45,913 nt of DNA, from positions 1 to 45,913 of the forward strand of contig NZ_CADCJB010000032.1 in assembly GCF_902801725.1 (NCBI RefSeq), given 5' to 3'. The position numbers and the translations under genes are program-made. Below are positions 7,273 through 38,570 of the stretch, piece after piece. The notes beneath the pieces are model-generated. The model worked only from the letters and a program-made list of their open reading frames with translations. It had not been told where the DNA came from and did no database searches. The stretch comes from an uncultured Methanobrevibacter sp. Its GTDB lineage: Archaea > Methanobacteriota > Methanobacteria > Methanobacteriales > Methanobacteriaceae. How positions within the stretch are numbered: the stretch's first letter is position 1; each line of letters starts with the position of its first letter.

Positions 7273-10200
7273 TCATCTATTTACTTTAACTGTTGTTTTA
7301 ATGGTATTCTTAATGTAGGTTACCCCAACGGCATAGGTTCTGCCCTTCCTAAGCTTTTTAATAACATTCTTGTTAAATGTTTTTAGCGCAATACCTTTTG
7401 AATTGGTTTTGGCATGATATGTTTTTCCAAGGAATTTAAACTTGATGATTGCTCCTTTGATAAATTTGCCGTTGATTTTAAGTTGAGCCTGCAGGATAAG
7501 TCTTTTGGATGTCTTTTTGACTATTACCTTTTTAGCGGATAAAACCTGTTTTACAGTAACTGTGTTTTTAACACTTTTTCCCTTGTATGTGGTTGTTATC
7601 GTATATTTTTTAGGAAGCTGTGTGATTTTGATTTTGGCAATTCCGTTATTGTTTGTTTTTACAGCAGTTGTCTTTTTATTGATTGTGAACTTGACAACCT
7701 CACCTGCTCCAACAGCGCGTCCGTCAGCAGTTACAACCTTCACGCCGAAGTATGATCCGCCATTATAATCAACTGCAATGTTTTTGTTGTTGATTATCTT
7801 GGTATCATCCTTAACTGTGTAGACCTTAAGACAGACTGTCTTGTTTTCAAGTGTTATATCCTTCCATGACTTGCCGTCAGTACCTACAAAACTCATTCCT
7901 GAAAGGTAGTGCTGTCTTGAGTAAGCCTGATACGGAAGATTATTGTTGTGGAATACCACTTTAAACTTGTCGCCTGTTTTAACCGGAATGTATTTATTTA
8001 AAACTATGGTTCTGAATCCTCCAAATTCACTTACACCGCTTTGAGAGTGGACCTTAACGCCATTGACAAAAATGTCAAATGAATAATTGATTCCGGATTG
8101 GTTGAAGTAGGTACCTACCGCTCCGATAAGCTCATCATATTTGGATGTGAATTCATTGGAATAATAGGTATAATTGCTGTCAAAACCAGTCAATCCAGTC
8201 AGGTCTGTCTGATAATTCACATGGTAGTCTATATCATTCTCAAAGATATATGCTATGGCAGGGTTTTGAGGAACAAGAGCAAAATAATCCATGTCCATAA
8301 AGCCGTCAAGATCATTATAATCGCGATAGTTGATGGACTGTGATAATGAATCCTTGACCAGCCATCCTCCTCTAGTCTCTTCTGCGCTATACTCACTGGC
8401 GTAATTGTCATTCCATCCTATGATATTAAAGAAATGAATTGCATGTTCCATGACTGAAATATCATCTCCGCCATAAATAATATCATCCTTATTTTGGCCC
8501 AAAATTAACTGAACTGCAACAGCACCATATTTCATTATGGTCTTCTTAATCAAATCAGTATTATTTTTTCCATTCAGAATAATGATTGCATCTTGAACAT
8601 GGATTCTGGAATCGTTTAAATCAGTATCACCCATTGTTCCTCTGTCATCATATGGAGAATCCATTGGAAGAGCTCCAATCCAGTTTAGAGCATATCCCAA
8701 ACCGCTGTAACCAAAACCAGTTAAACTAATCCTTAAATCACCCCAAGGCACATATTTCAAGTTTAGTTTCTGAGCATAATTTTGGGAGAGGTTAAAGAAT
8801 TGCCCTGTTGATTTGAGAAGAGATGATTCCAAAGCTCCGACTGTTGCAAATGCCCAGCAATCATCATTGTCTCCCTGACGCTTGATTGGGCTTACCCATC
8901 CCCAGTCACGTAAATCGAACCGGGATGGAATCTTATCAACAACAATGGAGTTATTTGTTAAATTGAGCTTTATTCCATTGCTTTCAATTGAAAGAACATA
9001 ATTCTTATTGTCAGTCAAAAAGATATCTTCATTTTTTGTGACGTTTTCAATTTTGGAATTGCTTGCAAAGTCCGCATAAACACCAACACCACCATTATCA
9101 AATATGGAATTGGACAACTGCAGATTTACGTCATGAGCATAAATTGCATTGGCAACATTTTCTGACTCTTTAATGGCCTTATTCTGGATGAAATTGGACC
9201 TTTGAATGGTTAATTTACCTTTATCAAAATATATTGCTCCCGCATTCTTTTCTGCAGTATTGTTGAAAAATGTGGAATCGACTATTGCCACATTGCTCCA
9301 TGATGAGAAAATCACACTGCCTTCAAAACTTGCACGATTATTTTTAAAGTTGGAATTATTAATGTTCAAATAGCCGCCCTGAATTGCAATGACTCCACCA
9401 AAACGTGAAGTGCAGTCAGTGAAATTTGAATTGATGATGTTCAAGCTTTGAGCAATACGATGGGACGCTGAATCAAGGTCTATAAAGATTGCCCCTCCAT
9501 CATCAGTTGATGTGAGATTTGAAAAGACACAATTTTCAATAAGCATCCTTTCAGAAGGAAGATAACCTGAACCGTTGGAATTTGAGACAGGGAAAAATTT
9601 TGCGATAATTGCCCCTCCATTAAAAGCAGCACGGGAATTGAGAAATTTTGAATTTCTAATTGAAAATGTGGCTCCTTTGAAATTTAATATGCCGCCATTA
9701 TTATTGGATTCAGCAGACTTAACGCAGCTACCGTTTATGCCTGAAGGAAAACTGACATTGTTCAAAGTCATCTCAGAAGTGGTCGCAAATAAAATTTCAT
9801 CATTGGATTTGCAGTTTATGAACTTTACATTGTTTAAGACAACCTTGCTTGATGAAAAGAAAATTGCTTGTCCTTTAAAATTTTTAAAGGTCAGGTCATT
9901 GATTTCAATATTTGCCATGTTTTTTCCACAATCCAAATCCAATTCAAACATGAAATTATAATTTAAGTTGGCACTATCCACTGTGTGGCCATTACCGTTT
10001 ATTTTTAAATCGGACACTTCAAAAGTTGATACAGTTCCAGTCTCATTAGCATAATGCATATAATCATTATTAATATTCAATGTACCATTACAATTTTGTA
10101 TATCATGAGTTAAATCATTGAAAGATTTGGGATTACCTGCATCCTCAGGAGCATTCTGATTGACATCATCAGAATTAGCCGAATCAACAGTGTTCAAATC

Positions 10201-10341
10201 ATGATTCAAATCATTGTTCAATTTATAATTATCCTCTGCAGCAACAATATCTGAAGAGTTATCACTTGCTGAAACGCCAGCAACAGCAAATAACATGCAG
10301 AGCATAATCAGAATAACAAAAAGTTTCGATTTTAACTTCAT
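7273..10341 (-). CDS. Secreted beta-helix/C1A peptidase adhesin-like protein with altered active site
   Basis: 1022 residues: signal peptide (1-26), Asn/Asp-rich linker, right-handed beta-helix repeats (about 75-430, with repeated GGAI, NSNF and NNTA turns), papain-like C1A domain (about 475-690), a lectin-like region and two Ig-like domains at the C-terminus rich in Lys and Thr. The peptidase has the oxyanion Gln489 and Cys495 (KRQGDNDDCWAFA) and His633 (MEHAIHFF), but the usual NSW is KDSLSQS, so the catalytic Asn is Asp664 and the neighbouring Trp is Leu. Such proteins are common in Methanobrevibacter and probably bind or trim wall or host polymers. A GAGGT site precedes the ATG. Confidence 0.9.
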   Translation of the reverse strand: MKLKSKLFVILIMLCMLFAVAGVSASDNSSDIVAAEDNYKLNNDLNHDLNTVDSANSDDVNQNAPEDAGNPKSFNDLTHDIQNCNGTLNINNDYMHYANETGTVSTFEVSDLKINGNGHTVDSANLNYNFMFELDLDCGKNMANIEINDLTFKNFKGQAIFFSSSKVVLNNVKFINCKSNDEILFATTSEMTLNNVSFPSGINGSCVKSAESNNNGGILNFKGATFSIRNSKFLNSRAAFNGGAIIAKFFPVSNSNGSGYLPSERMLIENCVFSNLTSTDDGGAIFIDLDSASHRIAQSLNIINSNFTDCTSRFGGVIAIQGGYLNINNSNFKNNRASFEGSVIFSSWSNVAIVDSTFFNNTAEKNAGAIYFDKGKLTIQRSNFIQNKAIKESENVANAIYAHDVNLQLSNSIFDNGGVGVYADFASNSKIENVTKNEDIFLTDNKNYVLSIESNGIKLNLTNNSIVVDKIPSRFDLRDWGWVSPIKRQGDNDDCWAFATVGALESSLLKSTGQFFNLSQNYAQKLNLKYVPWGDLRISLTGFGYSGLGYALNWIGALPMDSPYDDRGTMGDTDLNDSRIHVQDAIIILNGKNNTDLIKKTIMKYGAVAVQLILGQNKDDIIYGGDDISVMEHAIHFFNIIGWNDNYASEYSAEETRGGWLVKDSLSQSINYRDYNDLDGFMDMDYFALVPQNPAIAYIFENDIDYHVNYQTDLTGLTGFDSNYTYYSNEFTSKYDELIGAVGTYFNQSGINYSFDIFVNGVKVHSQSGVSEFGGFRTIVLNKYIPVKTGDKFKVVFHNNNLPYQAYSRQHYLSGMSFVGTDGKSWKDITLENKTVCLKVYTVKDDTKIINNKNIAVDYNGGSYFGVKVVTADGRAVGAGEVVKFTINKKTTAVKTNNNGIAKIKITQLPKKYTITTTYKGKSVKNTVTVKQVLSAKKVIVKKTSKRLILQAQLKINGKFIKGAIIKFKFLGKTYHAKTNSKGIALKTFNKNVIKKLRKGRTYAVGVTYIKNTIKTTVKVNR

Positions 10342-18947: not shown

Positions 18948-19346
18948 TCACCAGAACAGCAGTTCTCCGAACTTTTTCAAATCAAGCCCGAATGACCTGT
19001 TTGCAAGCTCCTCATCAGTCACCTTCCATTCAAGGCCATGGCTTATAATCTTCTTTTTCAAAACTTCAATGCTTGATGAAGTCAAGTCGCTTCCCCTGTA
19101 ACACCAAACATAACCTGTCGGTGTCGGCTTGATGTAGACATTCAGGAATCCTGTCTGATTCAACTTGTCTCTTTCGATTGATTTGTTTGCCAAATCCTTA
19201 TCGATTTTTGACCATTTCAATCCATAAAGACTAACAAGAACCTCCAATTCCTTCAGAGTATTGGCCTTAAGTGACTTTTCACCGAACTGATATTCCCAAC
19301 TCATGTCATCCAGCTGGTATACATTCATGAAACCTGAGAATTTCAT
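18948..19346 (-). CDS. Protein of two tandem ~50-residue repeat modules
   Basis: 132 residues made of two copies of a module: an aromatic strand pair (GFMNVYQLDDMSWEYQFG; GFLNVYIKPTPTGYVWCYRG) followed by a helix with LKANTLKELEVLVSLYGLKW or SSSIEVLKKKIISHGLEW, and an end DEELANRSF-like. The same module appears once at the C-terminus of the protein at 26390-26740. The fold looks like a small three-stranded sheet plus helix. No ribosome site precedes the ATG, so the message may be leaderless. Function is unknown; cytosolic. Confidence 0.7.
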   Translation of the reverse strand: MKFSGFMNVYQLDDMSWEYQFGEKSLKANTLKELEVLVSLYGLKWSKIDKDLANKSIERDKLNQTGFLNVYIKPTPTGYVWCYRGSDLTSSSIEVLKKKIISHGLEWKVTDEELANRSFGLDLKKFGELLFW

Positions 19347-20264: not shown

Positions 20265-21221
20265 TCACAGTACAATCTGCGAGAGGATTTGTCTTTCGAA
20301 AGCGGAATCCATATTTAAATTTTCCAATGCAACGGCTTTTCCTTCAATAGCTGATTTAAAACTTGAATCCATGCGAAAATGATTGTTCAAAAACTCATTG
20401 AATGCATTCAACCCATCCTTATAATCTTCAATCTTATTGAAAATCATAGCCTTGCAGAACAGTTGCCTTTTATCTATTTCAATCGCCATTCTTAAATCAT
20501 CACGACAGTCCCAACCCAATTCATATTTGCAGTATCCTCTGGCAAAAATCGCAACGTCGTTTTTATGACTCTCAATCGATTCATCAAATGTCGCCAAAGC
20601 TTCCTTAAAACGTTCAAGTTTAATTAAAACAAAACCCCTTTTATTAAGAAGCTTGAAGAGAATTTTGTTTTTGAATTTAGACGGATTTTTCAATGCATTT
20701 TCATAAAATTCCAGAGCTCTTTCAAACTCGCCCTTGGCTACAGCTTCATCTCCCGCATAGATGTTTCTCTTGATTTTTGGAAAACTGTCTCTTTCTTCGG
20801 AGGATTTCCTTAAAAGCAGTCGGTGGTATTCAATATCCTGTGGAAATCCTGATTTTATAGCCTTTTTATAAAAACGCAATGACTTGACGAAGTGTCCTTC
20901 GCCGAAAAGAGCATGTGATTTATTAATCAGGGCTTCAGGATATGAATCATCATAATATAAGACCTCATCAAGGTATGCGATTGATTTTGAAAATTTTTCT
21001 GCATTCAACAGTTCAACGGCCTTATCCAAAGTATTTTTGATTTCAATTTCTCGTGTCAAATGATTAATCCTATAAAATGGATTGATATTGTCATCGGATA
21101 TTCTTTCCACGAATGTATCGTCAGGACTTATCCATCCAGTTTCGACATCGCCGACAGCAAACCTTATCCTGTCATTCCTTTTGCATATTTCCAATTCACA
21201 GGGCAGTTTTTTCAAGCTCAT
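20265..21221 (-). CDS. TPR-repeat protein
   Basis: 318 residues. After about 50 N-terminal residues with a beta-like start (IRFAVGDVETGWISPDD), there are repeated TPR helices: AVELLNAEKFSKSIAYLDEV, YPEALINKSHALFGEGHFVK, AKGEFERALEFYENALKN, LNKRGFVLIKLERFKEALAT. TPR proteins act as scaffolds for protein complexes. The start at 21221 lies 35 bases after the helicase stop, so it is probably the last gene of the 281-residue protein/helicase operon. A partner is not identifiable from the sequence. Function is unknown. Confidence 0.8.
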   Translation of the reverse strand: MSLKKLPCELEICKRNDRIRFAVGDVETGWISPDDTFVERISDDNINPFYRINHLTREIEIKNTLDKAVELLNAEKFSKSIAYLDEVLYYDDSYPEALINKSHALFGEGHFVKSLRFYKKAIKSGFPQDIEYHRLLLRKSSEERDSFPKIKRNIYAGDEAVAKGEFERALEFYENALKNPSKFKNKILFKLLNKRGFVLIKLERFKEALATFDESIESHKNDVAIFARGYCKYELGWDCRDDLRMAIEIDKRQLFCKAMIFNKIEDYKDGLNAFNEFLNNHFRMDSSFKSAIEGKAVALENLNMDSAFERQILSQIVL

Positions 21222-21256
21222 CAGTAATTAATTTAGATAGCATAAGATAAATATCT

Positions 21257-24200
21257 TTAGTAGAAATTGCTTTCAAACGTGCAGGTAACGCCACTATATT
21301 CACAGTTCTTGCAGTTTATTTCATGCTTAGGATAATCCTCATTTTCAATATGGCTTATGACGCTTGAGAGATAATCGAAAATGAATTTTCCTGATTCGTC
21401 AAATGCCATTTCGTACTGCTTGTTTTCGTCAAGGACATGGAGAATCAGTGAATTTATCTCAAGGTCTTCATTTTCAAGCAGCGCATATGCATAATATGCC
21501 AAAGTTTCCATATAGAAATAGTGATAGTTTCTGATTTCATCCCGAGACCTTATGAAATGGATGAGATTTACCGAAGTTTCATTTTCCCTGACTATCAAAT
21601 CAACCATTCCGTTGACATCATAGCCATCCACTTCCAGGGTTACCGGACGGCTGTAGTCGACAATTTCATAGTCCTCACCATAATCCAGCCAATAGTCGGC
21701 AATATGGTCAAAAAGATTCTTCAATTCATTTTTCATTGAACTGGATGCAAAGCCGTATGACTTTACAACTTCGCTTACCAGATTATGAATATCTTCCCTG
21801 CTCCAGTCTTTGGCAAGCTTTGGATTGTGGATTGTGTTGAGCAGAACACGAAGTTTGGAGTTAATGAACTTGTTGATGTTTTTCGGGTTTTGATATTTCA
21901 GGTTATTTTCCAGATTATACTTCAATGGACAGTAAAGGTAATCATCAAGGATATCCTCAAATTCAAGCTGCCGGAACATGTTCGATTCGCGATGCATGTG
22001 GGAAGTTACCTTCTTAAGCTTTTCAGTATCATCAGGCTCTATTCTTCTTATTTCACCAAAATCATCCTCAAAATCTCTCAACACTTTTGGAACAGGTGCA
22101 TTCAATCTTGATTGTACGCATGAAAGAATAAGCAGCTCTTCAGCTCTGGTGTTTGCAACATAAACAATACGTTCCTCCTCATGATTCAGAGCTTTGATTT
22201 CATCCTCCTCGCTCATCTTATACTTGAGAAACTTGTTTGGAGTCGGATAGCTTGGACGGTCAAGGTCGTCACCCCTGCTGTCCCTGAATACTATAGGGAA
22301 CTTGTTTTCCTTTAGAGATGCAGTGATTACTACGGGATATTCAAGTCCTTTTGCCTTATGAACCGTCATGATGTGAACCTTTTCTGTGTTGTCTTCATAT
22401 TCATTGATCGGACAGCTGTAATGCTTCAGTGATCTGTGAAGATAGTTGAAAAGGCCGATAATGTCATGCTTTCCCATGATGTTTTCATAGTCAGATATTA
22501 TTCCGGATATCAGTGCAAGGTTCAGCGAAGCCTTTCTCGCTTCGAAATCATTTCTTGAAGACAGCTCCTCCAAAAAGCCTGTGCTGTTCAAAAGCCTGTA
22601 GAACACATCAAGAGAAGTTGGCTTTTTAGAGTAATCGGTGTCCATGTCAAAGATTTCGGCCTTCAGTTCATTGAGACCTGAAAAGAAGTCCAGATCATGC
22701 TCATCAGTGATGCCTATGGCCTTAAGCTGATTTCTTGAGAAAGTTGAAATATCCATCTTATTTGTCTTTTTGAATATGTCATCCAATACCTCATCGGAAT
22801 AGTCCCTTGCAACGTCCATAAATGAGTTTGACTTGGCGTTTTCAACCAGGGACTCATAGTTGCGGGCATAATTCACGACATTCTGGTGATACTTGAATTC
22901 TATCTCTTCAAGAATCTGCATTGTCTTATAGGACAGCTTGAAAATCTTTGAGGAATTGTAATATCTGTCTGTGAATGAAAGCAGATTAATCCAGTGCCCA
23001 CGGTCACCATATCGTGCAATAAGTGTAGGATTGAATGGCAGCACATACCAGAAAAGAGCCAGAATCGCCTTTGTCTCATCCTGATAAATTAAATCATCTA
23101 TTCCCTTGAGATAGTATGGAATACCTTCCCTATCGAATACATCAAGGATTTCCTTCTTGTCCCTGTGGGAGCGGAAGAGTACTGCAACATCACTGAACTT
23201 CTTGATTTTTTTGTTGATCATCAGATTTTTAATGATGTATGCAATAGATCGGTATTCTTCTGTATCATCCCTGCTTTCAAGAAGATAAACCGGCATCTTG
23301 TAGGAATTTTTGGCCTTGAGATTCTTTTGGGTTTGCCTTTTTGACTCTATATACCTTTCATTGAACTCCACGATGTCAGAGCTTGAACGGTAGTTATTGA
23401 CCAGAATCTTGCTTTCGAATTCATCGCCGTTTGCATAATCCGTGAAGAATTTAGGGTTTGCGCCTCGAAATGAGTATATGCTCTGGTCTGCATCCCCTAC
23501 AACAGCAAATGTATGAGCTATGCTTTGAAGCCTTTCAAATATCTGCATCTGAATCGCATCAGTGTCCTGAAACTCGTCAATCAGGATGTTTTTATATTCT
23601 ACACTGGCCAGATTGTCTTCATCTCTTAAAAGCTCCAGCGCCTTTATCAGCAGATAGTTCTGGTCACATACATGTTCTCTTTCCATCAGCTCAATCCAGC
23701 GAGGATACGATTCCACAATTTGCTGAAAGCGTGCATTGTACAAATCCTCATCAAATCCCCTGTATCTTATCTCCTTTTTGGAAGGGGCCTGACTGTTTTC
23801 AGCAAAATAGCTGTCAATCCATTGCATATATTCATCGCTTACCTTGAAATTGGTCCTGACATGGTCAAGAAGGGATTCCGTATCAACTTCAAAAAGGGCA
23901 TATTCCTCATATTTTTTCAATGCATGCAGAGACTCGTAGCTTCTCAAAAATGCCTCTCCTGTGAATCCCAACTCTTCCCTGTGCTTGTTGAAAAACAAGT
24001 TTCTTTCCGAGTCCCTTTTAAGCAGATTGTAAGGGATTTGTGAAAAATCCGATAAGACTGACCGGCAATAGCTGTGGATAGTACTTATCCTCATCTGATT
24101 TATGACGTTCAAATCCAGCTTGGTATCCTTTTTGAAACGCTCCTTAAGCTCATCGGCAGCCTTGTTCGTGAATGTGATGACCAGAATGGATGACGGCTTT

Positions 24201-24958
24201 TCGCTTTCAAGAAGATGGAGGACCCTCTCAATTATCACGCTTGTCTTTCCGGCACCAGGACCTGCATTAATGACCAATGGCCTGTCGCCGTCATATTCTA
24301 CAGCATCCTTTTGATAGTTGTCCAACTTGATTTCAGCAGGTATCTCTTTTATTCTACAGTAGTTTTGTCTTATTTGAGCTTCAAAGTTCAGTTTGCGGGT
24401 CAAGTCATTTCCTTCGCTGTCAACCAGTGCCAATGACAGAATCTGGTCCCGGATAAACTTATTCATATTGCTCTTTATTAGCTCCAATGCTATTGTTTTT
24501 TCCTCTGAAGGCAAATCATCGACAAATACAAAGCCTCCCTCATCACTGCCCAAAAGTTTTGAAGAAATAGAATCGACCTTCAGATTGTTCAAAAACAGAA
24601 ACAACTCATCATCGGTTATTTTTACATCATCACCCATGAAAGCCAAATCAAAGTCATAATATACCCTCAGAAATTCTTCTCGGGAGTTGAAGTAGTTTTC
24701 ATAGATTATGTCAAAAATCTGCCTGTGGACATTGCGTGCATCGGAAATGGTGAAATGCAAATCCGAATCGTTGAAAACATCTATTGTAAAATAAAGTTTT
24801 TGAGCGGTTTTTTTAGAAAACAAATCAAGGATGACTTTTGCAACTGCTATGGCAAGAGCATAATCCTTAAGGACAATGAACTTTTCCATGACTATGCACA
24901 AATCATGCAAATCCTCAAATTTGGTTTCAAGAAAAGAAAAAACGCTGTTTATTCTCAT
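21257..24958 (-). CDS. UvrD/AddA-type helicase with C-terminal degenerate nuclease and Fe-S-type cysteines
   Basis: 1233 residues. The first 215 residues have no recognised domain. The SF1A helicase then shows Walker A with Lys238 (GPGAGKTSVIIERV), an FTNKAADELKERF segment, DEFQDTD with Asp461-Glu462, GDADQSIYSFRGANP, VHIMTVHKAKGLEYPVVI around 867 and VANTRAEELLIL. The C-terminus resembles RecB/Cas4-like PD-(D/E)xK: it has YCPLKY (about 1015) and the end CKNCEYSGVTC, a four-Cys pattern that fits a [4Fe-4S] site, and GMVDLIV with Asp1120. But the expected D-x-K reads H1134-F-I1136, so nuclease activity is doubtful. It starts two bases after the stop of the 281-residue gene. Confidence 0.85.
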   Translation of the reverse strand: MRINSVFSFLETKFEDLHDLCIVMEKFIVLKDYALAIAVAKVILDLFSKKTAQKLYFTIDVFNDSDLHFTISDARNVHRQIFDIIYENYFNSREEFLRVYYDFDLAFMGDDVKITDDELFLFLNNLKVDSISSKLLGSDEGGFVFVDDLPSEEKTIALELIKSNMNKFIRDQILSLALVDSEGNDLTRKLNFEAQIRQNYCRIKEIPAEIKLDNYQKDAVEYDGDRPLVINAGPGAGKTSVIIERVLHLLESEKPSSILVITFTNKAADELKERFKKDTKLDLNVINQMRISTIHSYCRSVLSDFSQIPYNLLKRDSERNLFFNKHREELGFTGEAFLRSYESLHALKKYEEYALFEVDTESLLDHVRTNFKVSDEYMQWIDSYFAENSQAPSKKEIRYRGFDEDLYNARFQQIVESYPRWIELMEREHVCDQNYLLIKALELLRDEDNLASVEYKNILIDEFQDTDAIQMQIFERLQSIAHTFAVVGDADQSIYSFRGANPKFFTDYANGDEFESKILVNNYRSSSDIVEFNERYIESKRQTQKNLKAKNSYKMPVYLLESRDDTEEYRSIAYIIKNLMINKKIKKFSDVAVLFRSHRDKKEILDVFDREGIPYYLKGIDDLIYQDETKAILALFWYVLPFNPTLIARYGDRGHWINLLSFTDRYYNSSKIFKLSYKTMQILEEIEFKYHQNVVNYARNYESLVENAKSNSFMDVARDYSDEVLDDIFKKTNKMDISTFSRNQLKAIGITDEHDLDFFSGLNELKAEIFDMDTDYSKKPTSLDVFYRLLNSTGFLEELSSRNDFEARKASLNLALISGIISDYENIMGKHDIIGLFNYLHRSLKHYSCPINEYEDNTEKVHIMTVHKAKGLEYPVVITASLKENKFPIVFRDSRGDDLDRPSYPTPNKFLKYKMSEEDEIKALNHEEERIVYVANTRAEELLILSCVQSRLNAPVPKVLRDFEDDFGEIRRIEPDDTEKLKKVTSHMHRESNMFRQLEFEDILDDYLYCPLKYNLENNLKYQNPKNINKFINSKLRVLLNTIHNPKLAKDWSREDIHNLVSEVVKSYGFASSSMKNELKNLFDHIADYWLDYGEDYEIVDYSRPVTLEVDGYDVNGMVDLIVRENETSVNLIHFIRSRDEIRNYHYFYMETLAYYAYALLENEDLEINSLILHVLDENKQYEMAFDESGKFIFDYLSSVISHIENEDYPKHEINCKNCEYSGVTCTFESNFY

Positions 24959-24960
24959 AC

Positions 24961-25806
24961 CTACTCACTGTTGTAATTGATGCATAGCTTAGTTAAAAAT
25001 GAACCGTTAATCCTATCTGCACAAATCAATCCGTTCAGTATCATTGCCCTGACATTCCTGTTTATCGCTTCTCCGTCACTGATTGTCAGATGCTTGTTTT
25101 CAAGCAGCTTATTGAATGAATCTCCATTGCCCAAAACCAAGCTTTCCCATTTGGAAATTGCTTCTGCTTTTTTGGCTTCTGATTTGCGCATGACTTTATC
25201 GAAAAATGCATTTTTGATGCTTTTGAAGTTTTTGCCGTCCAGAATCTCCGCATACAATTCATTGGCAATTTGAATAATGTCCCTGTCATATATATTCGGA
25301 TTTTCCTTTTTGACCTTTTCAACCATCAGCGCATCGTAATTTCTGCCAACGATCATCTCCAGGCTTCTGATATAGGAATCCTGCTTAATGGCATTGGAAA
25401 AATAATATTCAAGACAGCGTTTTATTTCAAAATCACTGATGTTGTCCTCATTAATCAGGGTTTCCACCTTTGAATATATGATATCCAGGTCCTTGGGCGA
25501 AACATCATATCTTGCCAGATATTTCCTGTAAAATTCACTTTCCGCATCAATTAGATAATTGAGATACTCCACCTTGTATCTTTTCTCCTTTTCAAGGCAC
25601 ATTCCCCTGAAATACTCTTCCAACAGCTCCACCAGATTATCATCACCTGATATGACATCCTGTGAAATGTCATTTCTTATTTTTGAGACTATTATCTCAC
25701 AATCATGGAGACTCAAATCGTAAGAGTAGAGAAGATATTTGAAGTAGGGGGTATCGTACTCCCCAACAAGTTCATCTAATCGTGAAAGGATAACTTCATT
25801 CATCAT
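24961..25806 (-). CDS. Unknown protein co-transcribed with the helicase
   Basis: 281 residues, helical, rich in Tyr, Glu, Asp and Lys, no membrane segment or known motif. It contains repeated patterns such as YKVEYLNYLIDAESEFYRKYL and YDVSPKDLDIIYSKVETL that suggest two similar halves of helices (compare FKYLLYSYDLSLHDCEIIVSKI near the N-terminus). The stop is two bases before the helicase start, a strong operon link. I cannot assign a function. A nested stem-loop at 25913-25960 separates it from the genes further upstream. Confidence 0.75.
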   Translation of the reverse strand: MMNEVILSRLDELVGEYDTPYFKYLLYSYDLSLHDCEIIVSKIRNDISQDVISGDDNLVELLEEYFRGMCLEKEKRYKVEYLNYLIDAESEFYRKYLARYDVSPKDLDIIYSKVETLINEDNISDFEIKRCLEYYFSNAIKQDSYIRSLEMIVGRNYDALMVEKVKKENPNIYDRDIIQIANELYAEILDGKNFKSIKNAFFDKVMRKSEAKKAEAISKWESLVLGNGDSFNKLLENKHLTISDGEAINRNVRAMILNGLICADRINGSFLTKLCINYNSE

Positions 25807-26389: not shown

Positions 26390-26740
26390 TCATAACCTCC
26401 ATCCTTTAGCTAAATCCTCATCAAAGACATACCAAATGCGATTTTCAAGGATGACACTTTTTTTGAGTTCATCCAATGAGTTCGCTTTGATAATGCGCTT
26501 TTCCTGTTTATAATACCAGAAGCATCCCCTTTTGGATACCCTAAATATTCCAGTATCATTTTCCAAATAGTTAACTTCCAATTCCACTGTCAGAAGCTCC
26601 TCCAAAAATCGGAAAACCTCCCTGAGTTCTCTATCATCAACCTTATGCAGGTCCAAAATTCCATAGTCAATTGCTTTCAATGTCTCATGTGTCAGAAAAT
26701 CTGCGATTTCATTACTAAATTTAGCCAAACTAACCTTCAT
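26390..26740 (-). CDS. Hypothetical protein with one copy of the 18948 repeat module
   Basis: 116 residues. The N-terminal half is helical (VSLAKFSNEIADFLTHETLK). The C-terminal half (from about residue 58: GIFRVSKRGCFWYYKQEK, then IIKANSLDELKKSVI, then WYVFDEDLAKG) is the same module as the two repeats at 18948-19346. The start follows GAGGTTTGA. It is the middle gene of the row at 26003-27299. Function is unknown. Confidence 0.7.
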   Translation of the reverse strand: MKVSLAKFSNEIADFLTHETLKAIDYGILDLHKVDDRELREVFRFLEELLTVELEVNYLENDTGIFRVSKRGCFWYYKQEKRIIKANSLDELKKSVILENRIWYVFDEDLAKGWRL

Positions 26741-32479: not shown

Positions 32480-32500
32480 GGTTTTTTTAACCTTATTTTT
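32475..32500. terminator. Bidirectional terminator between thyA and the adhesin gene
   Basis: AATAAGGTT (32475-32483) and AACCTTATT (32489-32497) form a 9-bp stem with a five-T loop that overlaps both stop codons. T runs on each side fit termination in both directions. Confidence 0.7.
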
Positions 32501-35500
32501 TAACAGTTATTTTATTTGAATTCTTCAGACTACCATAACTTGTAAGTACAGTAAACTTACCTATTTTTGCACCAGATTTTAATTTTACGGCAGCTATTCC
32601 CTTGTAGTTGGTCCTTGCCTTATAAGTCTTGGATTTGAATTTGATGGTTATTACCTTATTCTTCATTATCTTGCCGCTAGTGCTAAGCAGTTTGGCAGTG
32701 AATGTAAAAGTCTTTGACCTTTTTACCGCAACATTTTTGGTAATGAGCCTAGGCTTGACAACTATCTTGTTCTTAATAGTGCATCCATTATATGATGCAT
32801 AAGCTATGTAAGTTTTAGCTCTTGCAGATATCTTTAAAGATGCATATCCATTGGAGTCAGTATTTCTGTAATATGTTCTGCCATTGAATTTGATGGTTAC
32901 CCGAACTCCTTTTGCAACATTTCCTCCATCATCATAAGCCCTGACCTTATAATATTTTCCGGATCCATAATACATTGTTATTCCTTTGCCAACCAAACGG
33001 GAAACAACATTTATTGACTGTGTCTTTGCTTCAGTGGTAACTGGATTGGTAAGTGAAACAACATAATTTCCCTTATTCATTTTTATATTATAGGAAATCA
33101 CTCCATTATCATCGCTTAAGACATTATAGGTCTTTCCATCAATGTTGAGTGTCACTTCCTTATTTTTCAAAGGATTGCCTTTTGCATCCAAAAGTGTAGC
33201 TTTGTAAATTGAATTATATGCATATTTGAATTGTTCAGGCAATGTTACTGTGGATTTTACAGTAAACTTATCGGTCAAATTGGATTTGAAATATCTTTCG
33301 TTTCCACCGAATGAAATCTCAATAGTATAGTCTCCAACAGCAAGATTCAACTCCACCCACGCAACACCTGAAGCATCAGTAGTGACAGTGTATGTCTTCT
33401 GGTTGATTTTTACTGTTAGCTTTGCGCCATTAACCGCATTGCCGGATTCATCCTTCAGAGTTATAGGACATGAAATCTTTTCATTGAAATAGAAAAAGTT
33501 GGCACAGGTGATTACAGTTTGCTTGAACTCAACGAACAAATCACGTTCAACAACATCAGAACTGTAAATATAGCTGCTCATTTCTGCCTTTATCTTATGA
33601 TTTCCACATGCCAGACTGCCAACATCCAAAATTGCCTTTCCCATGGTGGATTTGACCATATATGGCTTGCCATCCACATAAATACGCACATAGTCAGATA
33701 TCGGCTTTGATATTTCCACAATGATTTTATATGAACCGCCATTTTCCTCAAATTTCAAGGACAATTCCACATTTGTTTTTGAAACATTCAGAGAAACAAC
33801 CTTGGAAGATGTATCGTAATAATATCCATCATTATAGCTGATTGTAACAACATTTATTCCAGTATTTTTAAATGTATAATTCAATTCTGCCTTACCGTCA
33901 ACCACATTTACCACTTTATTTTCATCTTTCAATTTAAAAGTGACAGTGCCCATATTGACAATTTTACCATATGAATCCTTGACTGTACAAATAAGGTCAA
34001 CAGGATTTTTGACATCGGTTGATGGAATATTCAATTCCAAAGCTGTTTTAATCAATGAAACCTCAAAATAACCCATGAAGTGGGATGAATTATACAGGTA
34101 TGAATCGTCAAAGTATGTGGCTTCGATTTTCATGAATCCGAAGCGGTTGAAAATATGGGTTAGGCTTGCTTTTCCATTGGCAACATTGACCTTATGGTCA
34201 ATACCTTCAACATTGAATATAACAGCTCCTTTATTAACCTTGTTTCCATTACTATCAGTAATTGAAGCTGTTATTACCGCAGGATTGTGAGGATAATCCA
34301 TATTTAAAGAAATTGAAGTTCCGATAATATCCATTGAAACTGATTGGACAGTTTGTGATGAATTGTAACAGTATAAATCATCGTATCTTGCTGAAATAGT
34401 CTTCAATCCAAAAGTTTTAAAGACATGACTCATGCTGGCAGCACCATTGACAACGTTTACCTTATAATCGACGCCATCTATATTGAAAGTGACAACACCG
34501 CTTACTACTGACTTGCCGTATTGGTCCTTGACATAAGCATCTATAACAAGAGGATTATACCTTGAAGAGGAGAATTTTAAGGATATTATTGAGTTGATTA
34601 GTTTATTGCTTACAGCAATTTCACTTCCGGATGACTTGTATCCAGTCTGTTTTGGAGTGAATTTTGCGCTAAACTTGTTTATTCCATCTCCAATCACAAC
34701 TTTTCCATAGTTGGCAACGCCATTTGTGATGTCTACTGTTTTGTCAACACCACCTATAGTGAAAACAACATTTCCCTGACCCTTGAATATATTGCCATAT
34801 TCATCGAAAACTGTTGCAACAAGGTTGGAGTTTTTATCATCAATTCTTGAAAGGGTCATGACCACCTGAGTATTGATTTCATTCAATACTGTAAACGCCT
34901 TAATGCATGCCACCTGGGAATTGTATGTATGATCAGGATATGTCCATTCAAGGTCATAAAGGTCGGCCCATTTTTTGCCGTCATAGCTGATGAATGAAAT
35001 GCCTTTAGAGTAAAATTCAGTATTGAGAGATACTGCTTCTGAAATAGGCACTGACGCTTCCTTATCGACATTTATCTTAAATACAATGTCAAAGAGATCA
35101 CCCTTTTTGAGCGGAATTAACTGACCCAAATCAATAGTCTTATATCCTGGAGATGCAGTTCCTTTCTTAGTGAGCTTCAAAACATTGTTGACATAAACGG
35201 ACAGTTCCCATGTGGTGTCCTTTGAGAAAAATGTTGAAGCCGCAGAAAGATATTCCGCACCTGTTGCAGTGAACCTGTTCTTATACCATACCACAGATGT
35301 GGAGTTAATAAAGTAATCTGTGCAGCCAGGAATATCATATTGATAGTTCTTATCATATTTGATAGTGTCATTTAAAATGAATGTAAATATTGATGCAGAC
35401 TTATTGATAGGGGCGCATTTACTATCATAGTATGAAACATAATAATATCCCTTGTCTCCAGAGGAAGTTCCCCAACTGTTTCTTATAATCCATGCCCCAT

Positions 35501-37352
35501 CACCTTCAGGCTTGTTTTTGAAATTATCCTTGGAATATGTCTCGTCCCAACCGACTATGATAACTGCATGGTTTGGACTATTGCTTCCATCATAATAATA
35601 GCTCTTTCCTTTGGCATAATTGCTGGACCAATAAATGCTGGTTTGAACAGCACCATAATCCATTAAAGCCCTTTTGATTTTGTCATTGTCAGTGCAATCT
35701 GACCTTGTTAGATATGCAATATTCTGGATATGGAAATAACTTTTCAATACAGGAGACAGCAATGATTTTGCATCATACGGGTCATCGCTTTCATTTACAG
35801 GACCAAGCCATGATGTAAGATATCCTATTCCCATCTTATCATATCCTCCCGTATTTGTTTCCAATGGCCATCCATAATCAGAATAAAAGGCCATCAGATT
35901 CTTCATGTTTTCTTCAGATAAATCATAAGAAATGCCGGTTGCCTTTAAAATACATGATTCAAGAGCTCCCAAAGTTGAAAATGCCCAGCAGTTTCCTCCA
36001 TTTCCCTGATTCTTTACTGGAGTTACATAGCCCAAATCCTTAAGGTTGAAATATGAAGGCAGATTTCCGCTGCCGGAAGAATTGTACTTGACTAATGTAT
36101 AATTTCCATTTCCAATAAACACATCAGGCACTTTGGATTCAAAAACATCTTTGTTGACCAAAGCCTCGTTGTTGATGAATGTATTGTTCAAACCCTTATT
36201 CATAATTGAATCATAGTAGCAGTCGCTTCCAACTGAATAAACTGCACCGGCAGAATTCAAAGCAACATTATTAACAAATGTGTTGGATTTTATGACGAAA
36301 TCTTCCACATTATTAACGTGTAAGGCTCCTCCATCATTTGCCAGGTTATTGGTCAAATATGAATTGACAATTGAAAAAGACCTGTACATTACATAAATGG
36401 AACCACCGTCATATTCCGCCTTATTGTTTTTTCCAGTAAAACTGTTCAATTTTAATTTTGAGCTTAAAGAAACAATTGCACCACCAAATGTTGAAGTACA
36501 ATTAACAATTTCCATATAATCAGAATCCATATTGGAATCCAATAGATAAATAGCTCCTCCACCATCACCAACTGCATATCCGTTCAAAAATTGAGACCTG
36601 CTTATAGTAACTTTTGCATTGCCCTTTGCATAAACAGATCCTCCGCAGATTGTCGCATAATTCGAATTGAATATAGTGTTTTCGATTGCTAAATTTCCAC
36701 CGTTAATATTGATTGCTCCTCCCCTAATTGCATGATTATTGATAAATTGACTGTTTTTTATTGTCAGATTACCATCAGACACAGAAATTACACCATCTGT
36801 AGGAGCATAATTACCTGAAAAAGTACAGTTATTCAAATCAACAGCAGACACTTTGGTTGAAGAATGAATTGAGTCACCATATTCAATATTTTTGAATATT
36901 GTATTTTCAATATTCAGACTTCCCTTATTGGATATTGAACACCCAAGAAGAGTTACATTCTTAAGAGTTAAACTGCCGGATGAATCAAATCCCTTACCTG
37001 AATAGGAAATTACTGTCTTTTTGGGATTGTTTCCTACAACATTCAAATTTTCAAGTGAAACATATTTGTCCAATGAATATTCACCATCGGCAAGATGGAT
37101 TGTTGAGCCTTCCTTAATGCGAACGCTTTTTAAATACTTATATGGATTGTATTGTGAACCGTCGCCTGAATCACTTTCAATATTTGAATCAAAATATATG
37201 TCTGAAGTCAGCACATCGCCCTGACTGACGGAAACTGTCTGATTTGAATAATCAGCTGCAAGCAGAGTCTCGTTATCCTCTGCAAATGACATAGGAATTA
37301 TCATCAATAAAAACAATATTGAAAACAATACTAATAATTTAACTTTCCTCAA
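32493..37352 (-). CDS. Large secreted beta-helix/C1A peptidase adhesin with Ig-like repeats
   Basis: 1619 residues from the TTG at 37352, which follows GGAGG; the 43 residues upstream in frame have no site. Order: signal peptide (VKLLVLFSILFLLMIIPMSFA), linker, right-handed beta-helix (about 60-415), papain-like C1A domain with Cys455 (VKNQGNGGNCWAFS), His595 (NHAVIIVGWDE) and Asn625 (IIRNSWGTSSG), a lectin-like region, and a long tail of Ig-like (Big-type) repeats to the Lys-rich end, several with a VTFNIDGVDYKVN-type strand. The triad is complete, unlike the protein at 7273-10341. A role in binding or trimming surface or host polymers is likely. Confidence 0.92.
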   Translation of the reverse strand: MRKVKLLVLFSILFLLMIIPMSFAEDNETLLAADYSNQTVSVSQGDVLTSDIYFDSNIESDSGDGSQYNPYKYLKSVRIKEGSTIHLADGEYSLDKYVSLENLNVVGNNPKKTVISYSGKGFDSSGSLTLKNVTLLGCSISNKGSLNIENTIFKNIEYGDSIHSSTKVSAVDLNNCTFSGNYAPTDGVISVSDGNLTIKNSQFINNHAIRGGAININGGNLAIENTIFNSNYATICGGSVYAKGNAKVTISRSQFLNGYAVGDGGGAIYLLDSNMDSDYMEIVNCTSTFGGAIVSLSSKLKLNSFTGKNNKAEYDGGSIYVMYRSFSIVNSYLTNNLANDGGALHVNNVEDFVIKSNTFVNNVALNSAGAVYSVGSDCYYDSIMNKGLNNTFINNEALVNKDVFESKVPDVFIGNGNYTLVKYNSSGSGNLPSYFNLKDLGYVTPVKNQGNGGNCWAFSTLGALESCILKATGISYDLSEENMKNLMAFYSDYGWPLETNTGGYDKMGIGYLTSWLGPVNESDDPYDAKSLLSPVLKSYFHIQNIAYLTRSDCTDNDKIKRALMDYGAVQTSIYWSSNYAKGKSYYYDGSNSPNHAVIIVGWDETYSKDNFKNKPEGDGAWIIRNSWGTSSGDKGYYYVSYYDSKCAPINKSASIFTFILNDTIKYDKNYQYDIPGCTDYFINSTSVVWYKNRFTATGAEYLSAASTFFSKDTTWELSVYVNNVLKLTKKGTASPGYKTIDLGQLIPLKKGDLFDIVFKINVDKEASVPISEAVSLNTEFYSKGISFISYDGKKWADLYDLEWTYPDHTYNSQVACIKAFTVLNEINTQVVMTLSRIDDKNSNLVATVFDEYGNIFKGQGNVVFTIGGVDKTVDITNGVANYGKVVIGDGINKFSAKFTPKQTGYKSSGSEIAVSNKLINSIISLKFSSSRYNPLVIDAYVKDQYGKSVVSGVVTFNIDGVDYKVNVVNGAASMSHVFKTFGLKTISARYDDLYCYNSSQTVQSVSMDIIGTSISLNMDYPHNPAVITASITDSNGNKVNKGAVIFNVEGIDHKVNVANGKASLTHIFNRFGFMKIEATYFDDSYLYNSSHFMGYFEVSLIKTALELNIPSTDVKNPVDLICTVKDSYGKIVNMGTVTFKLKDENKVVNVVDGKAELNYTFKNTGINVVTISYNDGYYYDTSSKVVSLNVSKTNVELSLKFEENGGSYKIIVEISKPISDYVRIYVDGKPYMVKSTMGKAILDVGSLACGNHKIKAEMSSYIYSSDVVERDLFVEFKQTVITCANFFYFNEKISCPITLKDESGNAVNGAKLTVKINQKTYTVTTDASGVAWVELNLAVGDYTIEISFGGNERYFKSNLTDKFTVKSTVTLPEQFKYAYNSIYKATLLDAKGNPLKNKEVTLNIDGKTYNVLSDDNGVISYNIKMNKGNYVVSLTNPVTTEAKTQSINVVSRLVGKGITMYYGSGKYYKVRAYDDGGNVAKGVRVTIKFNGRTYYRNTDSNGYASLKISARAKTYIAYASYNGCTIKNKIVVKPRLITKNVAVKRSKTFTFTAKLLSTSGKIMKNKVITIKFKSKTYKARTNYKGIAAVKLKSGAKIGKFTVLTSYGSLKNSNKITVKK

Positions 37353-37589
37353 GTTATTTCCTCCATTTATACAATTTAACAACATAAAAAATGTTAAAAT
37401 GTATAGATTACTGTAATTTATAGCACTTATAATATAAAAAGATAGAGTATTAAAAAGGCTATTTTCATGAAAAAAAAGCAAAAAAACAGTTTCAAAGAAA
37501 AAAATTATGTAGGAGTGAAAATCCCCTATCTTTATATTTTGATTCTATTGCCACCTGATGTGACAAGACTTATCACATATTGTTCATTG

Positions 37590-38570
37590 CTAGTTGATAT
37601 GGTTGATACTTTCAGTATCAATCAGCTTATAGTCAATCAGTTCGTTAGAGTCCAAATCTTCATTTTTTAAACTGACTGCATTTATTTGAGAATTGCCATA
37701 TGTCCTGTAATACAGGATTCCATCATTTGTATTGTAGCAGGAGGAATATATTGTATATTCATAGAAATCAGGCTCCCTGATGAATGTGGCACCGTTTTGC
37801 TGTTCCACGGATTGTAGAATATGGAAAAACTGACCTACGCTAGCTTCCTCACAGGCATCAGAATATGAATTTTCACGGGTGAACGCTACCTTTACGAAAC
37901 GGGACATTGACGATAAATCACCGGGCAGACCCATTGCGCCCATTCCCCTGCTGTACTCATCAAGGTCAACATTTTCAAGAAAAGTGTTTTCATGTGCCCT
38001 GTTTGACAGATGCCTGTAGTTATTCAGATTAAACATCTGCCTGTCGAATGGTGGATTATTTGTCAAAACACCCACAGGATTATCATATATTCTCAATTCA
38101 TTTTCAAATGGTTCAACGACGATTGAATCACCGGAACTGTCGGAAAGCATCCAGTGAAGCGGAGATAATGGAAGCTGCTTTGAAAAGTCAATATTTACAA
38201 GGTTGATTTCCTGAAGCAACTTTTTTGCAGAAACTACACTATCTGCACAGCTGAGTATATATGGGATTAACTCAAATGGAGTAATGTTTATCATTTCACC
38301 GTTAAAGTCATTATATACCGCATTATCAGGGAAGTTCAAACCGGCAATGGCCAATCCCATTTCATTGCATGCATCATAATAAAGAGGATATTCATCAACG
38401 CCGGCGGCAATACCAATAATTGCATAATGAGACTTGATGGAGTCTATCTTTTTAAATTTGAACTCGTAGTTTCTTGGAACAATAGTAACCTTTTCATTGT
38501 ATGATATCTCATAATCGAAGTTACGTCCAAAATAACAATTGTCTGTGATATAATTACTTGCAGTACACAT
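37590..38570 (-). CDS. bsh: Conjugated bile salt hydrolase (choloylglycine hydrolase family)
   Basis: 326 residues, the usual length. It is an N-terminal nucleophile hydrolase: Cys2 becomes the catalytic residue after Met removal (MCTASNYITD). Arg16 and Asp19 (FGRNFDYE), Asn79 (AGLNFPD), Asn171-172 (VLTNNPPFD) and Arg224 (DLSSMSRFVKVAF) match the catalytic set of Clostridium perfringens BSH (C2, R18, D21, N82, N175, R228). It cleaves the amide bond of glycine or taurine bile salts in the cytosol. The enzyme points to life in an animal gut. No RBS is obvious and it stands alone between the adhesin and the rubrerythrins. Confidence 0.92.
   Translation of the reverse strand: MCTASNYITDNCYFGRNFDYEISYNEKVTIVPRNYEFKFKKIDSIKSHYAIIGIAAGVDEYPLYYDACNEMGLAIAGLNFPDNAVYNDFNGEMINITPFELIPYILSCADSVVSAKKLLQEINLVNIDFSKQLPLSPLHWMLSDSSGDSIVVEPFENELRIYDNPVGVLTNNPPFDRQMFNLNNYRHLSNRAHENTFLENVDLDEYSRGMGAMGLPGDLSSMSRFVKVAFTRENSYSDACEEASVGQFFHILQSVEQQNGATFIREPDFYEYTIYSSCYNTNDGILYYRTYGNSQINAVSLKNEDLDSNELIDYKLIDTESINHIN

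Follow-up and report, generated by a model that had tools for sequence, protein, structure and literature searches.

A Methanobrevibacter operon encoding a UvrD-type helicase with a degenerate Cas4-like nuclease domain, and its possible relationship to tailed RNA polymerase A' genes

Fusions of a UvrD helicase to a Cas4 nuclease (pfam12705) are described for mesophilic archaea in PMC5704561, with Res/Mod or Dcm genes as neighbors. The fusion of DUF4145 to a UvrD helicase occupies one table row in PMC3710099. A helicase of related architecture is encoded within the window, the stretch of 45,913 nucleotides from an uncultured Methanobrevibacter sp. that was analyzed here.

Layout and Distribution of the Operon

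The helicase (H) is flanked by the genes for a protein denoted X and a TPR protein denoted T. The features are as follows.

25806-24961, minus strand: X, 281 amino acids; first gene of the operon, all-helical, family unknown (from the open reading frame)
24958-21257, minus strand: H, 1233 amino acids; UvrD-type SF1A helicase with a Cas4-like C-terminal domain (from the open reading frame, Pfam matches, and motifs)
21221-20265, minus strand: T, 318-residue TPR protein; third gene of the operon, dispensable (from the match to TPR_2, E 2.6e-11)
24323..24958, minus strand: H residues 1-212, HEPN/DUF4145-like module at the N-terminus, R..GN....H motif lacking
22112..24322, minus strand: H residues 213-949, helicase motor; UvrD-helicase at 213-507 and UvrD_C at 519-949 (Pfam)
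21281..21961, minus strand: H residues 1000-1226, Cas4-like PD-(D/E)XK domain with the Fe-S cysteines kept and nuclease motif III lost
21551..21559, minus strand: H-F-I in place of D-x-K, H residues 1134-1136

The lengths, coordinates, and spacings assigned to the three genes in the first-pass annotation were borne out by the open reading frames, all of which are on the minus strand. X and H are separated by 2 bases, and H and T by 35 bases. At all 18 loci compared, X and H overlap or are no more than 2 nt apart; the overlap is 14 nt at 12 of these loci, and the remaining six have either a shorter overlap (11 or 4 nt) or a gap of 1-2 nt.

The distribution of the genes was determined by searches that covered 150 genomes of the order Methanobacteriales. 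Strong matches to X were found in 21 of the 150 genomes, H orthologues of at least 60% identity in 21, and both together in 20, and the pairing is therefore not due to chance. The two exceptions involve genes truncated at contig ends, X in G088 and H in G050. The X-H operon is limited to one genus, Methanobrevibacter. The named relatives of H come from Methanobrevibacter metagenome bins, some carrying titles that name the gut of water buffalo, water deer, or goat. T was found at 15 of the 18 H-bearing loci; it was not found at L074 and L109, and two short pieces are present at L064, so that T is missing or decayed at three. At L083, TPR repeats are fused to the helicase itself.

The neighborhood is largely syntenic, and the operon in the window occupies the syntenic chromosomal place beside a CoA ligase. 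An HTH-cupin gene, the CoA ligase, a 175-residue gene, and a 116-residue gene are found on one flank, and a small winged-helix gene and a 132-residue gene lie past X-H-T on the other, each in part of the loci. For the window against four relatives, the dN/dS values are 0.05-0.07 for H (four values), 0.08 for X (the sole unsaturated value), and 0.19 for T (one value), with dS generally near or beyond saturation. X-H-T is an operon of Methanobrevibacter. The operon with an unknown partner gene proposed in the first-pass annotation stands: X is without a known family, the genes adjoin, and the neighbors are conserved, contrary to the refuting outcome of a helicase with no conserved neighbor.

Several other genes of these neighborhoods were recorded. 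The small proteins flanking the operon (window 26390-26740 and 18948-19346) have in common a short W-Y...A-S..EL...W...DE-LA unit, which is doubled in one of them. At three loci only (L058:1374-2140, L068:2319-3066, and L076:9210-9960), a pair of small genes is found between the CoA ligase and the 175-residue gene, and one gene of the pair appears HEPN-like by eye. The window also encodes two large papain-like protease/lectin-like proteins and a protein of the choloylglycine hydrolase family (7273-10341, 32493-37481, and 37590-38570), in keeping with a gut archaeon.

Domains of the Helicase

The motor of H was identified from the Pfam matches to UvrD-helicase (PF00580, E 7.2e-54) and UvrD_C (PF13361, E 2.6e-37), and an alignment of 17 helicases (15 H and two sister proteins) shows no variation in the motor motifs. 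The C-terminal domain matches PDDEXK_1 (PF12705) at residues 1004-1223 with an E of 5.3e-7 and 30.3 bits against a cut-off of 22. The cas4 model matches at residues 1099-1224 (E 7.1e-9), and the fit to Cas4 models is poorer than that to PDDEXK_1. The cysteines C1010, C1216, C1219, and C1226 are invariant in the 17 aligned helicases, as are His1044 of motif I and Asp1120 of motif II. A putative Fe-S cluster is assigned to this domain from the four cysteines.

A search with H residues 1-215 returned 27 H proteins, of which 26 are long enough to include motif III, and a search with the N-terminus of a sister helicase returned 28 proteins. Motif III reads HFI in all 26 of the H proteins that reach the nuclease region. 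D-x-K is absent from all 28 sister proteins, where the motif is HFI in 24, HFV in two, and QFI in two; at the sister locus L081 it is KFI. The paralogues sampled from the order retain an intact D-[FY]-K at motif III in 26 of 26. The 14 rows with the dead nuclease form one group, supported at 100/100, in a 40-row tree. The loss of D-x-K would most simply have occurred once, before the H clade and the sister clade split; the tree method also allows more complex histories. Four comparisons, in which dS was near saturation, gave dN/dS values of 0.09-0.15 for the dead domain, which is under purifying selection. The Cas4-like four-cysteine pattern and the degenerate nuclease, with H-F-I at residues 1134-1136 instead of D-x-K, had both been read from the window alone in the first-pass annotation; they agree with the PDDEXK_1 match and the invariant cysteines, and the triad is retained in the orthologues, none of which has an intact D-x-K.

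Two other helicases of this kind were recorded. The UvrD paralogue of the window's own genome (L091:8149-11419, G000:C37) is split into two overlapping open reading frames in different frames, from either a broken gene or an assembly error. At L089:147-9738, a UvrD-Cas4 type helicase with an intact D-x-K is located between a TPR-cold-shock gene and the Cas10-Csm2 genes of a type III-A CRISPR locus.

The first 215 residues of H had been described as matching nothing. This was overturned by comparison with the N-termini of the sister helicases, to which the N-terminus of H is related with an hhalign probability of 95%. PF13643 is carried by nine of the 28 sister N-termini, and that of L081 scores 22.9 bits, just below the cut-off of 23.1. 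G[ND]..H is present in all 28 sister proteins, and by inspection the R..GN....H motif was not seen in the alignment of H. H residues 1-212 thus resemble the HEPN/DUF4145-like N-terminus of the sister helicases with the catalytic motif missing, as judged from sequence. Elsewhere, a protein encoded two genes downstream of a UvrD-Cas4 helicase (L103:13036-15000) joins a DUF4145-like start to a type IV DinG helicase part.

The assignment of H as a housekeeping AddA with its partner elsewhere, which had been named as an outcome against the proposal, was not supported. The NCBIfam AddA model scores 152.1 bits, far below its cut-off of 707.65, and no AddB-type nuclease or helicase domain was found in X.

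Protein X and the Tailed A' Genes

Sixteen X orthologues were aligned, with identities of 45-78%. The AlphaFold model of X is confident (pLDDT 89.5) and all-helical, and gave no match among the solved structures of the PDB. No match above cut-off was obtained in Pfam, NCBIfam, or PADLOC, and no helicase or nuclease domain was found by these three or in the model. Internal repeats are present: repeats 1, 2, and 4 are mutually related (P 1.5e-5 for 1-2 and 1.4e-6 for 1-4), and repeat 3 is unrelated.

At both of the readable sister loci, L080 in G077 and L081 in G034, the gene directly upstream of the helicase encodes RNA polymerase A' with a tail, at a distance of 8 or 37 nt. Both of these loci are contig ends of metagenome bins, and the L081 bin could mix strains. 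The A' parts contain NADFDGD, and the tails are 459 or 908 residues long. The two tails are 33% identical across about 245 residues, which disfavors a chance fusion during assembly. The A' part of L080 is 75.9% identical to A' of the window's genome, and no second A' was found in its bin (83% complete). The bin of L081 has a second A' copy, with which the A' part of L081 shares 94.7% identity. The nucleotide identity of this pair ranges from 79 to 99% along the gene, and the copies are therefore distinct; two strains in one bin are possible.

When the stub common to ordinary A' subunits is set aside, matches to the tail among 149 genomes came from G077, G034, and, weakly, G055. At least two further tailed A' genes are present, in G055 (L217) and G042 (L219), which brings tailed A' genes to at least four of the 149 genomes. 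Six other extra A' copies or suspects were also inspected. The tailed extra A' genes, from four Methanobacteriales bins, are as follows.

L080:2-4249: tailed extra A' gene
L081:4954-10173: tailed extra A' gene
L217:468-3242: tailed extra A' gene
L219:7215-10994: tailed extra A' gene

The tailed A' of L219 lies in a defense island of restriction-modification genes (type I methylase and specificity), an Mrr-like gene, and a gene for a BrxHI-like helicase; no UvrD helicase adjoins it.

X was compared with the A' tails using profiles ranked against 1444 proteins and 1444 reversals with the composition correction off; rows of 280-289, 174, and 147 residues were dropped, as intended members of the X family. 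The A'-tail proteins rank 1 and 2 with the X profile (50.9 and 30.5 bits; next 27.0) and with the X repeat profile (49.0 and 35.1 bits; next 21.4). The last 262 residues of the tails give best-domain scores of 26.3 and 25.9 bits against the X profile, which for each tail were reached by 0, 1, and 1 of 1000 permutations in blocks of 8, 15, and 30 residues, respectively. Natural windows selected for a high content of the same residues (cut-off 60%; tails 70-71%) did not reach these scores in any of 375 cases, the best being 15.7 bits. This weak best score belongs to the region between the HEPN-like module and the motor in L080-clade helicases (e.g., P0157 residues 148-250). By composition-corrected E-values, the similarity of X to the tails is not significant. 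The hhalign probability of X with the L080 tail is 7.6% with 233 columns, at the top of the non-X natural proteins, and that with the L081 tail is 0.3%, within the shuffles. At the level of the whole sequence, as many as 16 of 1000 permutations attained the score of the L081 tail, and a coiled-coil protein of 1515 residues in L219 sums to 29.6 bits. Taken together, these comparisons make it fairly probable that X and the A' tails are homologous.

Proposed Function and Comparison with Known Systems

In the reading that we prefer, at a likelihood somewhat short of even, X and H constitute a DNA motor complex that descends from the UvrD-Cas4 helicase-nuclease family, does not cut, and is docked by X. 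The likeliest target would be RNA polymerase or a transcription complex, because X resembles the tail of the extra A' genes directly upstream of the sister helicases. H would translocate 3'-5' on single-stranded DNA, and the dead Fe-S domain would guide or grip the strand in the manner of the inactivated nuclease-like domain of RecC. Binding of DNA ends by the dead domain of H, as suggested in the first-pass annotation, is conjectural. X would be the helical scaffold that docks the motor on its target, and T an optional adaptor. From the A'-tail fusion of the sister loci, H may push, strip, or remodel RNA polymerase or the transcription complex. Between viral conflict and genome maintenance as the purpose, conflict is slightly favored. 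A further proposal is tentative and on balance improbable: X would be the free-standing form of the helical tail that sister operons fuse to an extra A', the A'-tail operons would represent an undescribed class of conflict system, and the operon in the window would be the version without its own A' copy. Such a system would consist, in order, of the A'-tail, the dead-nuclease motor, and either a TPR-cold-shock protein or an OLD-like ATPase. The extra A' may act as a decoy for RNA polymerase-binding proteins of viruses, or it may serve as an alternative subunit through which the motor is recruited to transcription complexes.

The operon may instead be an anti-virus defense system in its own right, resembling Gabija or the UvrD-Cas4 fusions proposed as defense components in PMC5704561; foreign DNA would then be unwound or sensed by H, with X as the sensor or effector and T as an adaptor. 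The relatives point in this direction and make a defense role of the window operon plausible: that of L089 has Cas10, Csm2, and a TPR-cold-shock protein as neighbors, the same kind of protein (PADLOC PDLC01170) is encoded near L080 and L088, and L081 adjoins an OLD/AriA/GajA-like ATPase. H also matches the GajB and DRT-associated helicase models, a match that reflects the common UvrD fold. The operon itself, however, occupies a syntenic place in a single genus with no defense island seen, the scan of its neighbors showed no GajA-like or restriction gene, and X has no effector motif; as a reading of this operon, defense in its own right is considered rather unlikely. The same vertical, syntenic inheritance, together with strong purifying selection and the UvrD fold, would suit genome maintenance, with H as a repair or replication-conflict helicase for which another enzyme does the cutting, or in an accessory role like that of UvrD or Rep. 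The presence of H in only 21 of the 150 genomes argues against a core function, and the AddA, RecB, PcrA, UvrD, and Rep models all score far under their cut-offs on H, which leaves maintenance distinctly unlikely. That the nuclease still works through other residues is very improbable: His1044 and Asp1120 are indeed invariant in the 17 aligned helicases, but none of the 26 H or 28 sister proteins read has the motif III acid or lysine.

No published account of the dead-nuclease clade or the A'-tail operons was found in the open-access literature, in so far as its texts were available. On that literature, the X-H-T helicase is a variant of the UvrD-Cas4 kind, and the dead clade and the A'-tail operons are apparently undescribed. 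With a dead Fe-S nuclease domain maintained under selection throughout its clade, the helicase offers a clean test of the roles of such domains apart from cutting. The link to tailed A' genes, found once in a defense island, would point to a copy of the archaeal transcription machinery in a conflict or remodeling system.

The locus can be compared with five described systems. With the HEPN/DUF4145 domains of PMC3710099 it shares kinship in sequence and the fusion to UvrD, and GN....H is kept in the sister clade; it differs in that the motif is missing from H. In RecC (PMC1185551), likewise, a nuclease-like domain of the RecB-family fold is no longer catalytic but is retained to handle single-stranded DNA. 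There the domain belongs to a partner subunit, whereas the dead domain of H sits on the motor and keeps the Fe-S cysteines, and for H the role of guiding DNA is conjectural. PcrA/UvrD (PMC5397179) and HelD are SF1 motors that act on RNA polymerase, as H may do; the proposed contact of H, unlike theirs, would be made through X. Gabija (GajA-GajB) also places a UvrD-type helicase beside a partner gene. X is not an OLD ATPase-nuclease, neither X nor T matches the GajA models, and H is twice the length of the GajB models listed. With the UvrD-Cas4 fusions of PMC5704561, H has in common the UvrD-type SF1 motor, the Cas4-like PD-(D/E)XK domain with four cysteines, and the occurrence in mesophilic archaea. 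No Res/Mod, restriction-modification, or Dcm genes were recognized among the neighbor genes scanned. The H clade differs from these fusions by the loss of motif III, the HEPN-like N-terminus, and the partner X, and since D-x-K is missing from H, the UvrD-Cas4 family is given as its origin rather than as an active membership.
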